Origin: Planctomycetaceae bacterium | GTDB taxonomy: Bacteria; Planctomycetota; UBA8742; UBA2392; JABWBM01 | Direction: 5' to 3' | Assembly: GCA_013360495.1 (NCBI GenBank) | Contig: JABWBM010000015.1 | Coordinates: 1-32,861, forward strand | DNA: 32,861 nucleotides | In this document: one piece after another, positions 5,046 through 31,766 of the stretch | Layout of the letters: each line of letters starts with the position of its first letter | Position numbering within the stretch: the stretch's first letter is position 1 | Program-made: the position numbers and the translations under genes | Notes under the pieces: generated by a model | Databases searched by the model: none | The model's input: the letters and a program-made list of their open reading frames with translations, nothing else | Told to the model about the DNA's origin: nothing

Positions 5046-8000
5046 CTACTTCGAGCCCTGGGGTTGCGGCTCGTCGCCGGAGTTCTCCGCCGCTTCGCGT
5101 TCGAGGGAGATGGCGGCCATGGCCTCCGCCTCCGCCCGCTCGGCCTCTTTCTTCGCCGCCAGTTCGCGCTCGAACTCCGCGAGCACGTCCTTGCTCTTTC
5201 CGGTGAAGAAGAGCAGGAATGGACCGGCACGGACGATGGAGAAGTAGGTGCCGAACAACAGGCCGAAGAACAAGGTCAGCGAGAACGACCTGATAGCCGG
5301 CCCGCCGAGTACCAGCATCGCCAATACCACGGCAAACACCGATGCTCCCGTCAACACGGTACGCGAGAAGGTGCGGTTCACCGCGACGTTGATCACCTCC
5401 GGGAAGGGGCGCTTGCGCCCGGTATCGAAGTCGATCTTCAATTCCTCGCGGATACGGTCGAAGATGACGATGGTATCGTTAATGGAGTAGCCGATCACGG
5501 TGAGTAACGCGGCGACGGCGTTGAGGTCGAGCTTGATATCGCCGAAGATCTCGTCGGCCACGGCGAGCGCACCGAGCGTGATCAACACGTCCTGAATCAA
5601 CGCTGAAACGCCGGCATAGCCCCACGCAGCGCCTTTGAAGCGCACTCCCATATAAATAATGATGCCGATCAACGAAAGGATGAGCGCGATCACCGCGCGC
5701 GCTTGTGTCTCGCCGGCCACGCGGCTGCCGATGGCGCTCGCCCGAGGGAAGGGGTTCGAGACGTGGTTTCCGCTCCCGTCCTCGTTGAACCAGTCCTCGA
5801 TCTGCGGCTGCAGGCGTTCCAGAGCCGCAACGGTCTGGGCGCGGCCATTATCGTCCCAGGTGATCTTGCCGCTCGGCGTCTTGATCTCGAACTCGCGGCC
5901 GGCGTTGTTCTCGATAGCGCCTGTCGCGTTAACGATGACGATACCGGACTGGATCAGCGAGTCTTCGAGTTTCCCGCTCAATTCCCGGAGTTTGGCTGAG
6001 AAGACGGCGGTGTCCTCAGGTTTGTCGAGACGGACGAGGGCGGTGATTTGCCCCTTGCTCGCGCGTGCCTGAACGATGTCGTCTTTCGCCGGGAAGGCAT
6101 CGTCCTTCGACATCACTCCTGCGCCGATGGCCGTCAACTTGTCCTTGAGCGCGCCGTGGAACTTCTGGGCCGCATCGTCCAACTTGTTGCCTTTGATCTT
6201 TACATCGGCGATCACAAAGGTAATGGCCTGCGTCTGCTTGTCGGTTGCCGTCTTGAACGACGGTGTCTGCACCGTGCCGTCGATGTCCTTGAACCAGTCG
6301 TTCTTGAGCTTGTCTGTATCCCCGGCGTCGAAGCCCGGGAGGTAGTTGAGCCAGTTGTCGGTATCGAGCATGGAAGGCTCGATGCCTTCGGGCCGGCTGA
6401 CGCTCACGGTCGCGCGAAGCTCGGCTTCCTCGACAGTAGAGAAACTGGTGGAGAATCCGTCTTGCACCAGTTTTGGCTTTCCGTCGAGGCCGTTGAAGGC
6501 TTGCCGCAAGTCGGATTTGATCTCCTCGCTGCGCGCGTCGGTGACATCCGCTCCGGTCTTGCTCGGGAAGCGGATTTCAAAGCTTTTGCCGCCGGAAGAA
6601 GTTCGCTCGTTCTCGTCAGCATCCTTTTCGTCAGCGTCCTTGAGCGCAAATCGCGCTTGAGCCTCGACGGCGCTGTATTTCGGAAGGCCGTCGGCATTCT
6701 TGATTGACTCTACAGCCTTAAGCACGCTTTCACGCGACGTAGGCTCGGTGAATTGAACGACGATCTGGTTGCCGCCGAGGAAGTCGAGACCAAGGTTCTT
6801 GTCCCAGCGGTAGAGAAAGAAACTGAACGTTCCCAACATGACGATCAGGTTGATGAGCGCGATCTTGCGCCCGAAGCCGACGATATTCCAATTGGTCTGC
6901 TTGAAGAGCTCGAGTCCCTTGACCTCGGTAATCACGCCCTTCTCGAAGCACCAGTACATCGAGGTCTTGTAGACCAGCAACGCGACATAGAGGGTGGCGA
7001 GAATTCCGATGCAGAGCGAAAGCGCAAAGCCTGCAACGGCGCCGGAACCGACCTTCGTCAGGATGATACCGGTGAGCAGCGTGGTGAGGTTGCCGTCGAC
7101 GATGGCGGTAAACGCTTTGTTAAACCCGGCGTGCAGAGCGGCCCTCGGGCCTGCGCCAAGCCGCCGTTCTTCTTTGATGCGCTCGTTGATAAGCACGTTG
7201 GCGTCGATGGCCATTCCGAGGGTGAGCACGAGGCCCGCGATACCCGGCAACGTCAGTGTCGAGAGGAAGAGCGACATGATAGCGAGAATCAAGAGCACGA
7301 TCAGCACGAGGTTGAGCATCGTGAGCAACCCGGTGCGCCGGTAGAAGATCAACGCGAAGACGAATACGGCCACCGCGCCGATCAGGAGCGACATCATGCC
7401 GCGGTGAATGTTGTCGGCGCCTTCCGACGGGCCGACGGTTTCCTCGCTGGTGAGTTTGAGGCTCACCGGTAATTGGCCGGATTTCAGCGTATCGATAAAC
7501 TGCTTTACCTCGGCGCGGGTAAAGCTGCCGTGAACCTGAACGTCCTCTCCGAGCTTCTCGTTAATGCCCGGCGCGCTGTAGACGCGATTGTCGATGGCGA
7601 CTGCGAGATGGCGCGGGTCGTCCGAGTGCTGGTGGTGCTTCCCCGTGATCGCTTGCATCACGACGATGCCCTGATTCTTGAGCTTGAAGCTCACGGCGGG
7701 CGCGCCGAATTTGTCGGCTGACGGTGTGGCGTCGGCAAGGAACTTACCGCTAATGGGGTAATTCTCGCTTACTGATGGATCGGGGAAATGTTTTTGAACG
7801 AGAACGGCTTCGAGTCGGATGCGCGCCGTGCGTTCCTGGCCCTTCTTGTCGGTAAATTTTGTAATGACCGTGCGGTCGAGGACGACGGCCAACTTGTTGG
7901 CGTCGGTATCGCCGCCGAAGACCGGCTCTTTACGATCCGCGTCCGCCTCGACTTCGATGCCTTCCTCAGGGCTGTACTTCAGACCGCCGTCTTTGGCGAA

Positions 8001-8996
8001 GAGATCCGCCGCCGTCTGGTTCGGCTGGATCTCGTACCATTCATACCACGTCGGGTTTTTGTCCGGCGGGTTGGGATAGATGTCTTTGGCCGTCTTGTCT
8101 CCGAGAACATCCTTCACGTTCGGAAGCAGCATGAATTCCAGCGCGCCGGTGGAGCGCAACGTCTCCTTGATACGCTCCGTATGGGCGGCTGCGAGCGCCG
8201 GAATCTTCACCTCGATCTCGTTCGTACCCACGCCACGAATGTTGAGCTCGGTCATACCGCTCGCATTGAGGCGGCGGTTGAGGGTTTCGATCGTCTGGCC
8301 CACCATGTCTTTGGCGCCGGCTTCCCTCTCGGCGGCCGCGCGTTTGGCCGTATCGGCGTCGAGCGCGTCCAATTCAGACACGGGGACGGCGCCGGAGTTC
8401 CGCAACAGCGCGCGCTCAGCGTCCGTGAATACGGGGACGCGATCCGGATTATCGCGGAACTTATTGAGCGCAAGGGCGATGTCGTCCGGGAAGTTGTTCG
8501 ATCCGCTCTTGATGCGGTTGATCCAGGCATTGTAGAGATTGGAAAGGCGCGTCTCCGCGTCCACCACATCCTTGCTGCGAATCAGGAAGCGCAGGGACGT
8601 GCCGCCCGCGAGGTCCTGCCCAAGGTTTACCTTGAAACGGTGCCAGGGGTAATAGAACGAGAAGCGTCCGGAGACTTTTTCCTGAGATTGTTTGCGGATC
8701 TCGTCCGTCAAGGCGACGGTGAAGGTTTTGGGGTCTTCCTTTTCCGTTTTCCCGTCGGGGCGCGTATCGATGCTGACGCTCGCCCGGTCGAAGACCAGTT
8801 CCTCGTCGTCTTCCTTGTCGAATTCCCTTTCGTCTTTGAGCGTGATCTCGTAGCCGTCGGTGGTTTTCAGCGACGTGCTTTTCGGCAGATAATCGGCCGT
8901 TGGCGCGTAGATCGGATCCGACGGTTTCGGAATCGAGAAATAGACAGCGAAGATAATCGCAACCCAGACGTGCCACTTCTTGAGCCAGTTCAACAT
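5046..8996 (-). CDS. secDF: SecDF protein-export membrane protein (SecD-SecF fusion)
   Basis: SecDF uses the proton gradient to help pull proteins out of the SecYEG channel. The 1316-aa product is a single-chain fusion. The SecD half has an N-terminal membrane helix, the GQDLAGGTSLRF motif (about residue 126), and GMAIDANVLINERI in TM4 (about 592). The SecF half has LGLDFLGGNQIVVQF (about 734) and SINDTIVIFDRIREEL (about 1169). It is much longer than the roughly 740-aa Bacillus SecDF or the E. coli SecD plus SecF total, owing to enlarged periplasmic regions in both halves. The C-terminal tail is a charged coil rich in Ala/Glu. It sits downstream of yajC on the same strand, as in many bacteria, with one small secreted gene between. 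The ATG at 8996 gives a normal TM1. Confidence 0.97.
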   Translation of the reverse strand: MLNWLKKWHVWVAIIFAVYFSIPKPSDPIYAPTADYLPKSTSLKTTDGYEITLKDEREFDKEDDEELVFDRASVSIDTRPDGKTEKEDPKTFTVALTDEIRKQSQEKVSGRFSFYYPWHRFKVNLGQDLAGGTSLRFLIRSKDVVDAETRLSNLYNAWINRIKSGSNNFPDDIALALNKFRDNPDRVPVFTDAERALLRNSGAVPVSELDALDADTAKRAAAEREAGAKDMVGQTIETLNRRLNASGMTELNIRGVGTNEIEVKIPALAAAHTERIKETLRSTGALEFMLLPNVKDVLGDKTAKDIYPNPPDKNPTWYEWYEIQPNQTAADLFAKDGGLKYSPEEGIEVEADADRKEPVFGGDTDANKLAVVLDRTVITKFTDKKGQERTARIRLEAVLVQKHFPDPSVSENYPISGKFLADATPSADKFGAPAVSFKLKNQGIVVMQAITGKHHQHSDDPRHLAVAIDNRVYSAPGINEKLGEDVQVHGSFTRAEVKQFIDTLKSGQLPVSLKLTSEETVGPSEGADNIHRGMMSLLIGAVAVFVFALIFYRRTGLLTMLNLVLIVLLILAIMSLFLSTLTLPGIAGLVLTLGMAIDANVLINERIKEERRLGAGPRAALHAGFNKAFTAIVDGNLTTLLTGIILTKVGSGAVAGFALSLCIGILATLYVALLVYKTSMYWCFEKGVITEVKGLELFKQTNWNIVGFGRKIALINLIVMLGTFSFFLYRWDKNLGLDFLGGNQIVVQFTEPTSRESVLKAVESIKNADGLPKYSAVEAQARFALKDADEKDADENERTSSGGKSFEIRFPSKTGADVTDARSEEIKSDLRQAFNGLDGKPKLVQDGFSTSFSTVEEAELRATVSVSRPEGIEPSMLDTDNWLNYLPGFDAGDTDKLKNDWFKDIDGTVQTPSFKTATDKQTQAITFVIADVKIKGNKLDDAAQKFHGALKDKLTAIGAGVMSKDDAFPAKDDIVQARASKGQITALVRLDKPEDTAVFSAKLRELSGKLEDSLIQSGIVIVNATGAIENNAGREFEIKTPSGKITWDDNGRAQTVAALERLQPQIEDWFNEDGSGNHVSNPFPRASAIGSRVAGETQARAVIALILSLIGIIIYMGVRFKGAAWGYAGVSALIQDVLITLGALAVADEIFGDIKLDLNAVAALLTVIGYSINDTIVIFDRIREELKIDFDTGRKRPFPEVINVAVNRTFSRTVLTGASVFAVVLAMLVLGGPAIRSFSLTLFFGLLFGTYFSIVRAGPFLLFFTGKSKDVLAEFERELAAKKEAERAEAEAMAAISLEREAAENSGDEPQPQGSK

Positions 8997-24633: not shown

Positions 24634-25317
24634 ATGCCTTCCAATCCTAATAAGCCCTCTCCGGTTGACACTGCGCGCGAGATTTTCGCTGCCGCATTCA
24701 AACATCACGGACCACGAGTTGAAGCCCTGCTCTGGTCGGGCGAAACGTCGCAACGCGAACGTTTTGGCATCATGTGCGATATTGGCGACTTGCGTGACGC
24801 GCGGGTGCTGGACGTCGGCTGTGGGTTCGCAAGTCTATACGATTATCTTTGCGAGAGATTTGGAAAGATAACTTATACGGGGATCGACATAACGCAGGAG
24901 TTTCTTTCGGTCGCGAGGGAGCGCCACTCCGGCATAGACGTGCGTCTCGCTTCGATTGACACGTTAGGCGGCGACGAGCGCTGGGACTACATCTTTTGCT
25001 CCGGCATCTTCAACCTCGCGTACGGCTTTCGCGATCTGGAACTCAATCTCAAACACATGTTCGAGCGCGCGCAAACCGCCGTAGCCGTCAATCTTCTCTC
25101 GGCACATTCGCTTGGCGCACTCAACGTCGAAGCCTCGTACTTTGATCCCGCCGACGTTGTGACACTTGCGGCGCGCTTGTCGCGATCATTCACCTTGCGC
25201 CACGATTACCGCGCGAACGATTGCACGCTTTATCTTTACAAGCGTTCAAATTATCCGGGAAGGGACGTCACGCCGGGTAACATTCGGGCAGATGCCGTCA
25301 AGCGACCGTACGCATAA
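24634..25317 (+). CDS. Class I SAM-dependent methyltransferase
   Basis: A 227-aa Rossmann-type methyltransferase. Motif I VLDVGCGFAS is at 58-67, the acidic end of strand 2 in YTGIDIT, motif III-like VRLASID, and DYIFCSGIFNLAYG as the post-I catalytic strand. It lacks a substrate domain that would name its target. It starts four bases after the PIG-L stop without its own ribosome site, indicating translational coupling. A deacetylase followed by a methyltransferase suggests stepwise tailoring of an amino-sugar or lipid-linked glycan; this is inferred from neighbourhood only. Nothing else is visible from its stop to 25394. Confidence 0.87.
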   Translation: MPSNPNKPSPVDTAREIFAAAFKHHGPRVEALLWSGETSQRERFGIMCDIGDLRDARVLDVGCGFASLYDYLCERFGKITYTGIDITQEFLSVARERHSGIDVRLASIDTLGGDERWDYIFCSGIFNLAYGFRDLELNLKHMFERAQTAVAVNLLSAHSLGALNVEASYFDPADVVTLAARLSRSFTLRHDYRANDCTLYLYKRSNYPGRDVTPGNIRADAVKRPYA

Positions 25318-25394
25318 TCATAATGCGTTGGCCGTGTTCTGTGAGCCGACTGGAGTTTCTAAGACGGCATTCGCGTAACGCGCGCCCGGTGCCC

Positions 25395-25547
25395 CTATCT
25401 GCAATGGTGGTGACGCCGGTGGCTGTGGCAGTGGTCGTCATGATCGTGGCAGTCGTCCCAACAGTCGAGGATGATACAGCCGCTCGACAGTGTCGATCCC
25501 GTTGCTAACAAGACGCCAATCGCGATACCCTTGAAATTCAGTTTCAT
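25395..25547 (-). CDS. 50-aa His/Cys/Asp-rich lipoprotein, putative metal binder (not in ORF track)
   Basis: I read this gene directly from the minus strand; it is below the track's length limit. It has an ideal ribosome site (GAGGAGG, four bases, ATG). The product begins with a lipoprotein signal (MKLNFKGIAIGVLLATGSTL), lipobox SSGC with lipidated Cys24, and a 27-residue mature peptide containing DCWDDCHDHDDHCHSHRRHH: five Cys counting the lipidated one, eight His and six Asp. Such density of ligands strongly suggests binding of Zn, Cu, Ni or similar metal at the membrane surface. I know no named family. It is divergent from the HTH-TPR regulator gene (25858) and lies downstream of a possible small ORF (25592). 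Coding reality is well supported by the signal, lipobox and ribosome site together. Confidence 0.75.
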   Translation of the reverse strand: MKLNFKGIAIGVLLATGSTLSSGCIILDCWDDCHDHDDHCHSHRRHHHCR

Positions 25548-25591
25548 CGTTCCTCCTCACGCGCTCTCGGGCGCATGAGAAGTCTACGCCA

Positions 25592-25756
25592 TCAGAAAAA
25601 GAAGCCAACCCCGGCAAGAATTCCGCCTGCCACAATTCCGGCGGAACGCGGCGGCATGGGGTCCGGCGCTTGCCATGAGCGTGGATCGATGAGTTCTGCC
25701 GCCGGTGCATTGTCAGGCATTACGGGGAACGTCAACCAGCGAGGCATGGTACGCAT
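25592..25756 (-). CDS. Possible small protein with C-terminal glycine-rich membrane helix
   Basis: The frame ends in PRSAGIVAGGILAGVGFFF, a glycine-spaced hydrophobic tail, and is 44 bp upstream of the His/Cys-rich lipoprotein gene on the same strand. Candidate ATGs lie at 25756, 25747 and 25720, none with a convincing ribosome site. It gives 42 to 54 residues. The region must also hold the promoter of the opposite regulator gene, so the reading may be chance. Included because the tail is membrane-like and the order suggests a shared transcript. Confidence 0.3.
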   Translation of the reverse strand: MRTMPRWLTFPVMPDNAPAAELIDPRSWQAPDPMPPRSAGIVAGGILAGVGFFF

Positions 25757-25857: not shown

Positions 25858-27384
25858 ATGGCGAGAGATGGCGACAACTCCGCGGATCAAGCGTTTCAAG
25901 ATCGGATCGCATGGCTCGTCAAGGAACACACCCTGCGCGGCCTCGCGCGAAAACTCGAGGTCAAGCATCAGAATATCCTGCGCTATCTCAAGGGCACGCA
26001 ACCCTCGGCATCGTTTTGCCGTTTGCTTGTGGAAAAGATCGGCGTCAACCCGGCATGGCTGCTGACGGGGGAGGGGAGCCCGAATCTCTCGGACGTCCCG
26101 GCGACCTTGGCAAGCACGGGGTCAGACTTGCTTGAGCTGGTGCAGGCGATGACAGCCGTTTCAAAGATGCGGCTCGGCGCGCTCGCTGGCAAGCAGCACT
26201 TGAAAGTCATGCGCGAACTGAACGACGCGATGGTGAGCTACGACACCTTGCGCAAGCGTTTGAATGCTCACAGCAAAGCTTCATTCGAAAAGATCATTGA
26301 CATGCTGCGCAGAACTATCAGGACAGACGATACGAACAAAGACCTCGATAAAGCCCAATCGCTTGTGGCTGCCGGAAAGCAGATATCGCTCCTGTGTGAC
26401 GAGCCGGTGTTGCGCCATGAATTTCTTCGCCAGGTGGCGGGTTATGAATTGCTTCGCGGGAACCCATCCGAAACCGAGCGGAACTTTCGCGAGATCGTTC
26501 TGGCGGGTTTCATGATGCGCAAGGAGGGGCTCGACGCAGGAGGGTGCAGCGACGCGCTCAATCTCGTCACCAGTTTACGCCAGCAATTCCGGCTGCCCGA
26601 GGCGTGCAGAATCGCGGAAGCCGCGCTCGACCTCTCGATGCCATCGATCAGGCGCACGCCTGAATATCATTCGCTGCTCGAATATGCCGGGCTCAACGAT
26701 TTTGAAACCGGCAATCTCAAACGCGCGCAATCCCGGTTAGCGCGAGCCATGCCAAAAGTTGGCGCCTCGTCGCGGCTATGGGGGACCATTCCGAGAATAG
26801 CGGCTCTCAATTTCTTCTCTGGGACCATGAGCTACCGGGAGGCCAAGGCGTATTGCGGAAGCCACGGGGTTCTATGGCTCGGTGTCATGGCGCTTTGGAG
26901 CGAAGAGCCAAAGCACCTCCAAGACGTACCAGAGTTCATGAACGCCTGGAAAGGGCCGCCGAATTTCTTCCTTGCGTTGCAGGCCGCTTACGCCGAGCAG
27001 GTGCTTGGCTCCCTACGCGCTGGTTCACCAAAAGCGCTCTCGTCGTTTGACAGCGCGATCGGGCGCCTGCCTGTACCCGATACCTTCGCGCAGACAAAGC
27101 GCTGTATCGCGCCGATCGTCAAAGCGCGGGTGGCAATCCATGTGAAGGACCGGAAGAATGCGGTCCGGATATTCCTGGAGGCAGAACAATACCTGAATTC
27201 CCTCGCGCCGGCTATTGCACTGCCCGTGCATTTCGCGGCGATGCACCACCGTAACGCGCTTGCCCTGAAAGGCGCGGGTGACGCCCTCGACAAAGCCAGA
27301 GCGCGCGCGTTGAAGTTTTTCCGCAAGCACGTCAAGGCAGGGTATCTGCTTTTCGAGCCGCTGCTTGAACACTCCGCCGTCTAG
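25858..27384 (+). CDS. CI-type HTH transcriptional regulator with long TPR-like C-terminal domain
   Basis: A 508-aa protein. The first 75 residues are a helix-turn-helix of the phage CI-repressor type (VKEHTLRGLARKLEVKHQN, then GVNPAWLLTGEG). Phage relatives carry a peptidase S24 domain after this; here about 430 residues of paired helices follow instead, with TPR-like phrases such as AAGKQISLLCDEPVL, EACRIAEAALDLS and FETGNLKRAQSRLARAM. The track start is 51 codons upstream; the ATG at 25858 has AGGGGG in front and fits the domain start. DNA-binding plus TPR recalls peptide-sensing regulators of the RRNPP type, although those are best known in Firmicutes. It is divergent from two small membrane-linked ORFs and precedes the large secreted protein. 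Confidence 0.85.
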   Translation: MARDGDNSADQAFQDRIAWLVKEHTLRGLARKLEVKHQNILRYLKGTQPSASFCRLLVEKIGVNPAWLLTGEGSPNLSDVPATLASTGSDLLELVQAMTAVSKMRLGALAGKQHLKVMRELNDAMVSYDTLRKRLNAHSKASFEKIIDMLRRTIRTDDTNKDLDKAQSLVAAGKQISLLCDEPVLRHEFLRQVAGYELLRGNPSETERNFREIVLAGFMMRKEGLDAGGCSDALNLVTSLRQQFRLPEACRIAEAALDLSMPSIRRTPEYHSLLEYAGLNDFETGNLKRAQSRLARAMPKVGASSRLWGTIPRIAALNFFSGTMSYREAKAYCGSHGVLWLGVMALWSEEPKHLQDVPEFMNAWKGPPNFFLALQAAYAEQVLGSLRAGSPKALSSFDSAIGRLPVPDTFAQTKRCIAPIVKARVAIHVKDRKNAVRIFLEAEQYLNSLAPAIALPVHFAAMHHRNALALKGAGDALDKARARALKFFRKHVKAGYLLFEPLLEHSAV

Positions 27385-27408
27385 CAGGCCGCTGCAAGAA
27401 GGCCTGTT
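27385..27408 (+). terminator. Weak hairpin after the regulator gene
   Basis: CAGGCC and GGCCTG pair across a ten-base loop directly after the stop codon, extendable by two weaker pairs, followed by TTTC. The T-run is poor, so termination is uncertain. Confidence 0.35.
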
Positions 27409-27717
27409 TCAAGGCCCATGGATGGTTCGGCGCTGTCGCGCGGTAAGCACGCAAAATGCGCGCTATACCAGACGAACACCATAGTCGGGCAGTTCGCGTG
27501 ATCTCCACCTGGGTTGGGATGGTCCTAAGTCGGACCGGCACCGTCATTGCGGTACGATACGAGACCAATAGTTGGTTCGGCGCCCGCTATTCGCGCTATT
27601 GAGCAATGCGTTGCCCATAAAATGACCGCACATCGATATGTCGCGCCTCTTGTGGCGAACGATGTGTCGAAGGTCTGGTTCCCCATTCTCGTGGTTGAGC
27701 GACACAGGAGAAGAAGC
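27409..27717. other. Intergenic region, about 310 bp, nothing convincing
   Basis: The plus-strand frame through here is merely the upstream extension of the secreted protein ORF and lacks a signal peptide. TGGTTCGGCGC occurs twice (near 27425 and 27573). No good promoter or RNA structure was found; an AGGAG site at its end serves the next gene. Confidence 0.5.
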
Positions 27718-30351
27718 ATGGGGTCGAAAAAATTCCCTTGGTGTACGCCGTCTGGCATCTGGTGGTCTTTTGCGGTCGTAGTTGCCTTTGCGGCGTTCAT
27801 GCCCTGCGCATTGGCGCAGGGGAACGTCGGAGATTACCAGATAACGGCCCCCTTGCCGGGGGCGAATAACCGGTTACCGAATGCGGAAGAGCAACGCACC
27901 TATTCCCCTGTGGTGTTTAAGGCGACTAGCAAGTGTGTTATCCGTGAGCCCAATAATCAGCCACATTATCCGACCCAGTGGACGATCGTATCGGGCAGCA
28001 TTCCCAGTGGGATGGAGTTCAAGGCTCTCCAGAGCGTCCGTTATAGGCCTTCGACTGGGTCTTATGTAAGCGTGCAAGACTATAATGCAGCAACCGACCA
28101 AGTCTTCCCCGAATGGTTTCAACTCACGAAAAAGCCTGCGCAAGGAACCGCTGGACAATACACCTTCACGATTCGAGCCTCGCTTCCAATGAACCCCTCG
28201 CCGCCCTATACCGGCGCTCCGCCGGCGGCGGCGGAAATAACGTATACGTTGGTCGTCGACGGCCCCGACCGCGACTATGAGATTACCGCTCCGACATCGA
28301 CAACGTTGGCGAACGCAAAGGTCGGCAACCAATACAATATCCCCTTTCGGGCGATCAGTGGCTGCATTGTCGAGCCTAGGCTGAATTCGACGGCGGGAGA
28401 ATGGAGGTATCCGACGATATGGACGGTGATTGGAAATGCACCGCCGGGTCTGGCTCTCGTTTCCAGTTCCGTCATCGGTTACGACCCAGACACCGGTTTT
28501 ATCACGGGAACGACAAGGGATTCCGTTACAGGCCAATGGATCACTCCCGACGCTCCCAATGGAATAATCTACGCTGGAGACGTTCAATTTACCGGTATTC
28601 CCGAGGACGATGCTGACGGAGCCTACACTTTTATCGTGAGAGCTTCATGGCCGAACGGCGCGCCTTATGTAGGGCTCACTCCACCAGCGCCGGTCGAAGT
28701 AGAGTACACGCTCGTTGTCGAGCCGGAATTCCCGCCGCCGGTGATTACGACCGATGCGTTGCCCCTCGCCTATGATGATGAGGGTTATGCAGCCCAGATA
28801 GCTGTCGATGACGGCGAAGCGCCGTTCGCGTGGAGTGTGGTATCAGGAGCTCTGCCTCTGGGCCTTTCGCTCTCCCAGGACGGCTTGATCTCCGGAACCC
28901 CTGAACCGGCCAGCTCTCTCAATTCTCCTTACACCTTCACTATCTCGGTCTTCGACTCCAACGGCTCCGGCGCCCGGGAAGCAAGCATGCGGTATCAACT
29001 TGAAGTCCTGCCTTCATATCTGCGTTTCACGACACAAAGCATTCCCTCCGGTTATGAAGGCCTTCCCTACCGCGCGTGGATCGAGGCGAGTGGTGGCGAA
29101 GCACCAAATTCCTTCAGCGCTATTTCAGGAATGCCCGATGGCCTCTCCATGGACACAGATGGCCGGATATCCGGAACGGTGGCGAACGATGCAGCTGGCC
29201 GGGCCGGGTCTCAGACCTATAGCCTCGTTGTGGACGTCACCGACAGTCATCCGGTCTACCCCCAGACCGTGCGACAAACTTTTGCCCTTATTGTTACCAC
29301 CGACCGTAGCGGCGCATTTCACATCAGCACGTCGAGCTTGCCAGCAGGTACTGACGGAGAAGACTATCTGACGCAGCTTGTCGCGCTTGGCGGTAGCCGC
29401 GACTATAGCTGGAGCACGGACAATCTGCTGCCGCCGGGCGTAAGCTTGAGCGATTCGGGGCAGCTTTCGGGAACGGTGGATAGCGATGCCTCGACGTTGT
29501 CACCCTATGTGTTGACCTTGACAGTCACCGACAACGACACTTCAGAGGAAGTCAGCGCCACACTCCCCCTCAACGTCCTGATGGAAGGCCACATCGCCCC
29601 GGACCTGCGCGGGACCAATATCGCGCTGCCCGACGCCGTCGAAGCTGAGGCCTACGACGTCGAACTCGAAGCCATGGGCGGCGTAGCCCCCTACGTATGG
29701 GAAGCGGTCAATGTCCCCACTGGTCTTTCAGTGCTGCGCGATGATGGGTCGTGGTTCCTGCGCGGCGTTCCCACACCGGGCGTTGCCGGACGGGCGGCGG
29801 TTATGCTTTCGGTCACGGATAGCGAGGACACCGTGGAGAGCGTCTCCTTCTCACTCAACGTGGCCGAAGCCGGCAGCAGCCCATTGGCATTCATTACGTC
29901 GGTGCTGCCGCTGGCCCGCATTGGGCAGAACTATGGCCCGGTGGTTATCGAACTCGAGAGTGGCGAAGGGCCATACACGCTCACCCAACAGGGATTGCCC
30001 TCGGGTCTATCGTTCCAATCCTCAGGCTCGACTTGGTATATCGACGGAACCGTGGAGAACGAACGATTGGGCAGCGTTTCGGGAACACCCTATGAGATCA
30101 CCATCATTGCCACCGACTCCGCCGGTTCCGTCGCGGCGCTCGTTACCACGCTCGTGGTGCAGTCAACGGCGTTGGAAGACAGCTCAACCCCCGGCATAGG
30201 CGCCATCGCAGGAGGCCTCGTCACTGGAACAGCCGCTGCGGGAGCATGCGCGCTCGAGTGCGCGCTGCCACGCTGGAATATCATATGGCTCGCATTGGTC
30301 GCGTTGGGCGCGTGCGCGGCCATTCGCGCTTCGATGGCGCGTAGAAAATGA
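27718..30351 (+). CDS. Large secreted multi-Ig (He_PIG-like) protein with C-terminal membrane anchor
   Basis: An 877-aa exported protein. The ATG at 27718 (AGGAG upstream) opens a signal peptide ending near CALAQ; the track start would bury it. Two homologous domains of about 120 residues follow, opening YQITAP and YEITAP, each with a single Cys. Then come about five repeats of about 90 residues with the He_PIG/putative-Ig hallmark, for example LPLGLSLSQDGLISGTPE and LPPGVSLSDSGQLSGTV. The C-terminus is a Gly/Ala stretch, GACALECALPR, a hydrophobic helix WNIIWLALVALGACAAI and basic SMARRK, resembling tripartite sorting or anchor signals. It is probably a surface adhesin or stalk-like protein. 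Many repeats differ, so it is not a recent expansion. Confidence 0.88.
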   Translation: MGSKKFPWCTPSGIWWSFAVVVAFAAFMPCALAQGNVGDYQITAPLPGANNRLPNAEEQRTYSPVVFKATSKCVIREPNNQPHYPTQWTIVSGSIPSGMEFKALQSVRYRPSTGSYVSVQDYNAATDQVFPEWFQLTKKPAQGTAGQYTFTIRASLPMNPSPPYTGAPPAAAEITYTLVVDGPDRDYEITAPTSTTLANAKVGNQYNIPFRAISGCIVEPRLNSTAGEWRYPTIWTVIGNAPPGLALVSSSVIGYDPDTGFITGTTRDSVTGQWITPDAPNGIIYAGDVQFTGIPEDDADGAYTFIVRASWPNGAPYVGLTPPAPVEVEYTLVVEPEFPPPVITTDALPLAYDDEGYAAQIAVDDGEAPFAWSVVSGALPLGLSLSQDGLISGTPEPASSLNSPYTFTISVFDSNGSGAREASMRYQLEVLPSYLRFTTQSIPSGYEGLPYRAWIEASGGEAPNSFSAISGMPDGLSMDTDGRISGTVANDAAGRAGSQTYSLVVDVTDSHPVYPQTVRQTFALIVTTDRSGAFHISTSSLPAGTDGEDYLTQLVALGGSRDYSWSTDNLLPPGVSLSDSGQLSGTVDSDASTLSPYVLTLTVTDNDTSEEVSATLPLNVLMEGHIAPDLRGTNIALPDAVEAEAYDVELEAMGGVAPYVWEAVNVPTGLSVLRDDGSWFLRGVPTPGVAGRAAVMLSVTDSEDTVESVSFSLNVAEAGSSPLAFITSVLPLARIGQNYGPVVIELESGEGPYTLTQQGLPSGLSFQSSGSTWYIDGTVENERLGSVSGTPYEITIIATDSAGSVAALVTTLVVQSTALEDSSTPGIGAIAGGLVTGTAAAGACALECALPRWNIIWLALVALGACAAIRASMARRK

Positions 30352-30436: not shown

Positions 30437-30521
30437 TGAGCATCATAGGATAAGACGGCCTTCCCATACGTAATCCATGCAGTAACGCTGGTCGATGCTG
30501 TGCGCACATAGAAAGAACACC

Positions 30522-31766
30522 ATGCATCATATCCTTGCCATCGCCCTAGCTCTCGGATGCCTAGTCAACGCCACGCCCATCCTCGCGCAGTTCTCAGACT
30601 ACAAGCCCTCGAAGTTGGTGGGCAAACCCTGCCCGGAAATCCCGCTTGAGAACTATATGTTGCAGGGCGACTTGATCGCGCAGGCGGACATGTATGGCCG
30701 CGTGGTATATATCGATTTCTATCAGACAGGCTGCCCAAGCTGCGAGAAATACGGCATGCCGCACGCTCAGGAACTCTTCGAGAAATACAAAGACAACCCG
30801 GACGTTATCGTGATGGTGGTGAATACCGCCTTCGAGAAAGACAGCAGACCGTTCACCGCGGACGAAGCAAAGACAAAGGATCATCTCGTCAAAAAGGGCT
30901 GGACCATGCCCGTCGCCCGGGACAAGGACGAACGCTGCATCGATGAAGTCTTCGGGCAAGGCACCACATCCGGCCTGATTCTCGACCCATCCGGGGTGAT
31001 CCGTTACCACCAGGTCAACCTTGGCGATGAGAAAAACATTGAGCGCATCATCGAGGAACAGATTGCAACGCTCAAAGATACCGACGTCCCAGCGCCGTAC
31101 AGCACGCACGTCGCGCTCGCCGACACCGTTCGCTTGATCGGCGAGAAGGACTACGGTGAAGCCCTCCAATCAGCGAAGGACGTTTTGGAATGGGAGGAGA
31201 GGGCGCTCAAGGAAACGGACGACAAGCAAGCAAAGGACGACGAGGGCGCCGAGAATTTTTCCAACCGCAATCCGAAGGAAGCGGCAAAAGTCGTACGCCA
31301 TGCGCGTTATTTGATTTCGCTCATCACCAACTCCTTCAAACGCCGCTGCGCTCATTGGACGCGTCTGCAGACCTATGATCCACCGGCGTCCATTCCTTAC
31401 GGAGAGACTATCGCCGAAACTTTCAGGGGTGTCGACCCGGAATTCGACGCCACGGCGGGTTTGGCAGGTTTGGCGACCATGACGGACGAGTACAAAGCGT
31501 TCGTCGCCCTCGATGAAGAGTACCAGAACGCCCTCAAACAATACGAGAAAGAGACAACCATCAAGGGCGGCGATGCCAGCAAGTCCGTGGCGCTCATCAA
31601 GGATATCGCTGAGCGCGGCAAGGGAACCCGCATCGGCGACGACGCAATGGCGTTCTTAAAAAACATTGGCGCAGCCACGGATACTGACGCGCCGTCCGAT
31701 AAAACAAACGAAGCGGATGATTCGATTCCACAGGAAGAGACGGAAAACCAGCATTCGGAAAAATGA
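30522..31766 (+). CDS. Secreted thioredoxin-fold protein (TlpA/AhpC-like) with long C-terminal extension
   Basis: A 414-aa exported protein. The signal peptide MHHILAIALALGCLVNATP begins at the ATG at 30522 (30495 in the track is possible but adds a charged leader). The thioredoxin-like domain (about 25-180) starts LVGKPCPEIPLENY and contains YIDFYQTGCPSCEKYG with a CPSC active site, and later GLILDPSGVIRYHQVNLG, typical of TlpA-like reductases. The rest is an uncharacterised, charged helical part ending in an acidic/Gln/Asn-rich tail. It would act outside the cytoplasm, perhaps on disulfides of secreted proteins such as the Cys-containing domains of its upstream neighbour. It is convergent with lepA with a 47-bp gap and no clear terminator. 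Confidence 0.85.
   Translation: MHHILAIALALGCLVNATPILAQFSDYKPSKLVGKPCPEIPLENYMLQGDLIAQADMYGRVVYIDFYQTGCPSCEKYGMPHAQELFEKYKDNPDVIVMVVNTAFEKDSRPFTADEAKTKDHLVKKGWTMPVARDKDERCIDEVFGQGTTSGLILDPSGVIRYHQVNLGDEKNIERIIEEQIATLKDTDVPAPYSTHVALADTVRLIGEKDYGEALQSAKDVLEWEERALKETDDKQAKDDEGAENFSNRNPKEAAKVVRHARYLISLITNSFKRRCAHWTRLQTYDPPASIPYGETIAETFRGVDPEFDATAGLAGLATMTDEYKAFVALDEEYQNALKQYEKETTIKGGDASKSVALIKDIAERGKGTRIGDDAMAFLKNIGAATDTDAPSDKTNEADDSIPQEETENQHSEK

Follow-up and report, generated by a model that had tools for sequence, protein, structure and literature searches.

A 50-residue open reading frame for a candidate His/Cys-rich lipoprotein, with a hairpin over its Shine–Dalgarno site, in a planctomycete genome

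Introduction

Does a very short open reading frame (ORF) with an extreme content of histidine, cysteine and aspartate encode a real lipoprotein and, if so, what would such a peptide do? The question is raised by a minus-strand ORF at positions 25395–25547 (stop codon included) of a 32,861-nucleotide stretch of planctomycete DNA, here called the window. The first-pass annotation had read it as a real gene outside any named family, whose product might be a membrane-tethered metal buffer or a sensor ligand. Short, low-complexity genes of this kind are easily missed by gene finders.

Results

Anatomy of the small lipoprotein gene

The ORF has the signal peptide, lipobox and ribosome site ascribed to it, and its full product is the 50-residue peptide MKLNFKGIAIGVLLATGSTLSSGCIILDCWDDCHDHDDHCHSHRRHHHCR, which contains no proline. 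Codons 1–23 (25479–25547, minus strand) specify the signal peptide MKLNFKGIAIGVLLATGSTLSSG, located by a pattern scan: Lys2 and Lys6 lie in its n-region, the short hydrophobic core reads IAIGVLLA, and the lipobox L-S-S-G is followed by Cys24. The peptide therefore displays the marks of a lipoprotein, namely a basic n-region, an h-region and a lipobox cysteine within the first 40 residues. The lipobox fits the PROSITE PS51257-type rule and departs from the strict L-[AS]-[GA]-C box: the strict form wants leucine at −3, whereas this one has serine at −3 and leucine at −4.

The mature part, CIILDCWDDCHDHDDHCHSHRRHHHCR (25398–25478, minus strand), forms the candidate metal-binding tail. Its 27 residues comprise five Cys, eight His and six Asp, as originally counted, and His and Cys together make up almost half of it. 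Because Cys24, at position +1, is the predicted lipid acceptor, four of the five cysteines would be free. The cysteines are spaced C-x4-C-x3-C-x6-C-x8-C, and the tail also contains HxHxxHCHxH. Synonymous codons are mixed along the tail (CAC/CAT, GAC/GAT, CGG/CGT), which argues against a simple DNA repeat. The Shine–Dalgarno (SD) sequence AGGAGG (25552–25557, minus strand) stands 4 nt before the ATG.

Comparison with chance and codon usage

ORFs that join a basic n-region, a hydrophobic stretch and a PROSITE-type lipobox (lipobox ORFs) are expected by chance about once per 33 kb. A simulation of 1,000 windows, equal to 32.9 Mb or nearly ten genome equivalents, produced 966 of them. Seven of these carried at least five SD bases, none was preceded by AGGAGG, and none had a mature part with at least 40% His + Cys. 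In 529 kb of real sequence from the same genome, for which 40 further stretches were taken in, a single lipobox ORF is preceded by a full AGGAGG and a single short ORF has such a His/Cys tail; both times it is the ORF at 25395–25547. A full AGGAGG precedes the first ATG in just 3 of 302 long ORFs in this background, so the site is strong by local standards. The combination of AGGAGG, signal and lipobox in one ORF exceeds chance.

Codon usage supports coding status weakly. The sense frame has the highest synonymous-codon score of the six frames, near the scores of the two neighbouring genes; it sits at the 17th percentile of real gene windows (17% score lower), and 35% of wrong-frame windows exceed it. 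An antisense origin, in which the His-rich reading would be the shadow of a Val-rich plus-strand ORF (25323–25508), was rejected: that ORF lacks an SD sequence, and its codon score resembles that of non-coding DNA. The anatomy, set against the null model, thus gives good support to the initial claim of a real gene, although neither conservation nor expression adds to it.

A hairpin over the ribosome-binding site

The SD sequence is embedded in a 12-bp stem-loop (25553–25582, minus strand; arms CUUCUCAUGCGC...GCGCGUGAGGAG), for which folding gives −20.4 kcal/mol and a z-score of about −4. Its 3′ arm includes five of the six SD bases, and those within the stem pair with a probability of about 1. 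In the same genome, 96% of 188 long ORFs have a leader that folds less stably. The ribosome site, described at first as ideal, is so in its motif and its distance from the ATG; lying mostly inside the 3′ arm of the stem, however, it may not be freely accessible.

No second copy of the palindrome within 3 mismatches occurs in the genome, which rules out a REP-like repeat as its origin. The hairpin is thus no repeat element and, as it lacks a T-run, no intrinsic terminator. An Rfam scan of the window gave a tRNA elsewhere as its sole match. The promoter scan found no consensus promoter upstream of the ORF on the minus strand; a weak TTGGCT-N16-TAGACT, picked out by eye and below the scan threshold, is suitably placed for a start inside the 5′ arm. 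This leaves three readings: regulated translation, transcription that begins within the 5′ arm, or an SD sequence that came with the palindrome as a by-product. The hairpin hints at control of the lipoprotein at the level of translation. In a more elaborate version, which we consider quite improbable, the envelope metallopeptide would be specific to its lineage and equipped with an RNA switch: the hairpin would open in response to metal or stress, and the lipid-anchored His/Cys trap for metal would be produced only when needed. If true, a single gene would form a self-contained buffer for metal, with neither a transporter nor a dedicated regulator.

Search for relatives

The absence of a named family was borne out: the peptide has no match in Pfam and NCBIfam at E up to 1, nor in the PDB at E up to 10. 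Plasmid sequences contained no match, and GTDB and viral contigs, queried with short peptide seeds that reach close relatives only, gave no confirmed relative. Short homologues with the same signal and His/Cys-rich pattern, looked for in relatives as the first-pass annotation had suggested, were not found in 392 genomes of the phylum, where the best matches were noise and the genomes nearest to the host are related at order level. The host itself probably belongs to Planctomycetota, since its LepA comes closest to those of Planctomycetota MAGs, at 62%. The coding pattern for CHDHDDHCH, with up to 2 mismatches, occurs in these genomes only at this locus and once in a long His-rich frame. Weak matches (E 0.002–0.6) came from searches of 40 relatives and of the 392 genomes; those checked were wrong-frame or low-complexity segments within other genes, and the best of the weak matches (GSLPAGGCFFLNCW..., locus L131) is an intergenic frame without ATG or SD sequence. 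With the nearest relative in the collection at order level, the absence of homologues is equally compatible with a lineage-restricted gene and with a spurious ORF, and for want of a homologue conservation of the Cys and His positions cannot be shown.

A repeat family of His/Cys-rich lipoproteins in the phylum

A DNA pattern consisting of a lipobox cysteine followed by HxHxxHC led to a 77-residue lipoprotein (L193/L205) in another family of the phylum, and from there to an unnamed family of lipoproteins built on the repeat H-x-H-x3-C-G-H-x-[YFW]-x4-W. The family is present in 14 of the 392 genomes, at loci L205 (G097), L210, L214, L224, L225 and others within L205–L229. Its lipoproteins range from 77 to over 400 residues and carry one to several units of about 22–25 residues with a near-invariant tryptophan; none of the members tested matched Pfam or NCBIfam above the cut-off.

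The window peptide and this CGH-repeat family have in common the phylum, a lipoprotein signal, a very high content of His and Cys in the mature part, and the HxHx3C spacing. In contrast to the family, whose members are longer, the 50-residue peptide lacks the aromatic residues of the unit and has no repeats; nor does it have the CGH of the H-x-H-x3-C-G-H signature or the tryptophan that follows at position 16. Pairwise comparison gave E=0.11. A hidden Markov model of 59 repeat units scored the tail at 8.2 bits, a value reached by 399 of 2,000 shuffles of the same tail, and this control rules out membership. The HxHxxHC likeness itself was selected by the search pattern. The recurrence of His/Cys-rich lipoproteins as an independent conserved family indicates that such tails are kept by selection in the phylum, and shows that these lipoproteins are a recurring, selected type there. 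The CGH-repeat family is a better candidate for a metal-binding family than the window peptide. Taken together, and if the small gene is real, the two suggest that His/Cys-rich lipoproteins are employed at the envelope of Planctomycetota to a greater extent than annotation reveals.

Genomic neighbourhood

By domain match, the convergent neighbour (24634–25317, plus strand) is a class I methyltransferase and the divergent neighbour (25858–27384, plus strand) is an HTH_3 + TPR-like regulator, for which a paralogue search found more than 30 copies in this genome. As the methyltransferase gene comes next downstream, no same-strand gene directly follows the lipoprotein gene, which is probably monocistronic. 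The neighbours scanned encode signalling, SecDF, epimerase, PIG-L deacetylase, He_PIG and thioredoxin-like proteins, including a ResA/DsbE-like thioredoxin-fold protein at 30495–31766; no metal transporter, oxidase or metal regulator is among them. SecD and SecF form a single 1,316-residue fusion (5046–8996, minus strand). Just upstream of the lipoprotein ORF, on the same strand, lies a 42-residue frame (25592–25720) with the hydrophobic end MPDNAPAAELIDPRSWQAPDPMPPRSAGIVAGGILAGVGFFF, no SD sequence and a neutral codon score.

The HTH-TPR family is lineage-expanded, with 38 matches in this genome, 3–18 per genome in the same order and near absence outside the order. As a partner of the lipoprotein, the regulator was rejected: 20 regions around its paralogues were scanned and none contained a similar small lipoprotein. 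The idea of a sensor ligand found no backing, as the transcription unit holds no two-component or other sensor gene and the other scanned HTH-TPR copies have no such peptide adjoining them. A separate association concerns He_PIG-like (Ig-like) secreted proteins, recognized by a simple motif. They occur in 7 of 22 stretches with an HTH-TPR paralogue (window 25858–30351; L113, L114, L115, L116, L117 and L125) versus 0 of 39 others, all from this genome, and the two may possibly be dedicated regulator/surface-protein pairs.

Discussion

Function of the tethered tail

The reading that we favour, at just short of an even chance, is that of a real, lineage-restricted, monocistronic gene whose Sec-exported, lipid-anchored product serves as a small envelope buffer or sink for metal. 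On Sec export, Cys24 would be lipidated and the signal peptide cleaved. The 26 residues that follow Cys24, among them four free Cys, eight His and six Asp, would remain tethered to a membrane surface outside the cytoplasm. There they would bind soft or borderline transition-metal ions and act as a small buffer or sink. The metal preference is not inferable from sequence; His, Cys and Asp would suit Cu, Zn, Ni or Co. We infer expression, lipidation, metal binding and buffering alike. Composition makes the metal binding in the earlier proposal of a membrane-tethered buffer chemically plausible, whereas the absence of a homologue and of any metal gene among the neighbours scanned, the weak codon score and the lack of a consensus promoter in the scan count against it. 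In an oxidizing periplasm, the tail cysteines could also be engaged in disulfides rather than serve as metal ligands. A new small metallo-lipoprotein is thus plausible but unproven; if real, it would be among the smallest conceivable tethered metal traps, with 26 residues on a lipid anchor.

The same facts can be read in other ways. The gene may be real but young, an orphan whose His/Cys/Asp tail has no part in metal homeostasis and makes a structural, neutral or disulfide-cross-linking envelope peptide. This would account for the lack of homologues in 392 phylum genomes and of metal genes around the locus, and Cys-rich cell-wall proteins, which may cross-link by disulfides, are known in Planctomycetes (PMC8567305); the ResA/DsbE-like protein encoded in the window also fits. 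Disulfide cross-linking, however, has no need of eight His and six Asp, typical metal ligands, in 27 residues, and we regard such an orphan as somewhat unlikely. Alternatively, the ORF could be spurious, its AGGAGG a by-product of the palindrome and its tail an accident of CAY/GAY-rich DNA, in keeping with the five SD bases inside the 12-bp inverted repeat, the weak codon score and the lack of conservation. Against this, the same frame independently contains a signal peptide and a lipobox, their combination with AGGAGG is unseen in 32.9 Mb of simulated sequence, and the palindrome, having no second copy, is not REP-like; a spurious ORF is therefore unlikely.

The gene might instead specify an exported peptide of the CutF/CruR/CopL type. 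Its synthesis would respond to metal and be controlled at translation, and its translation or export would in turn regulate a gene by way of RNA structure. In favour of this, the peptide is small and predicted to be exported, its tail is rich in Cys and His, and a hairpin covers a ribosome-binding site, as in the cutF-cutO system (PMC9973294). Yet the hairpin of the cut operon covers the ribosome-binding site of the downstream gene, and the one described here covers that of the peptide itself. With a convergent methyltransferase gene next to the ORF, no metal gene lies directly downstream on the same strand, and the C terminus has no proline-rich stalling motif; both features make a CutF-like role highly improbable.

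Comparison with known metal-binding systems

In anatomy the 50-residue lipoprotein resembles CutF, CruR and Xanthomonas CopL, proposed metal sensors that are likewise short, exported by Sec and equipped with Cys or His motifs. Their place is upstream of metal genes whose production they govern, and the C terminus of CutF carries a Pro-rich, stalling-like motif (PMC9973294); the lipoprotein has neither feature. The CopL of Staphylococcus aureus is a membrane-anchored lipoprotein, proposed to bind copper extracellularly and so limit its uptake (PMC10233261). Compared by description, it differs in that its gene and that of a copper ATPase (copXL/copBL) stand together under CsoR, whereas no copper gene surrounds the gene in the window. 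In composition, the peptide resembles Hpn of Helicobacter pylori and bacterial metallothioneins, which are small metal stores with an extreme content of metal ligands. Hpn and metallothioneins are cytosolic and have neither signal nor lipobox, unlike the lipoprotein described here. Hpn, a small His-rich Ni2+-binding protein, takes up as many as six Ni2+ per monomer (PMC5312948).
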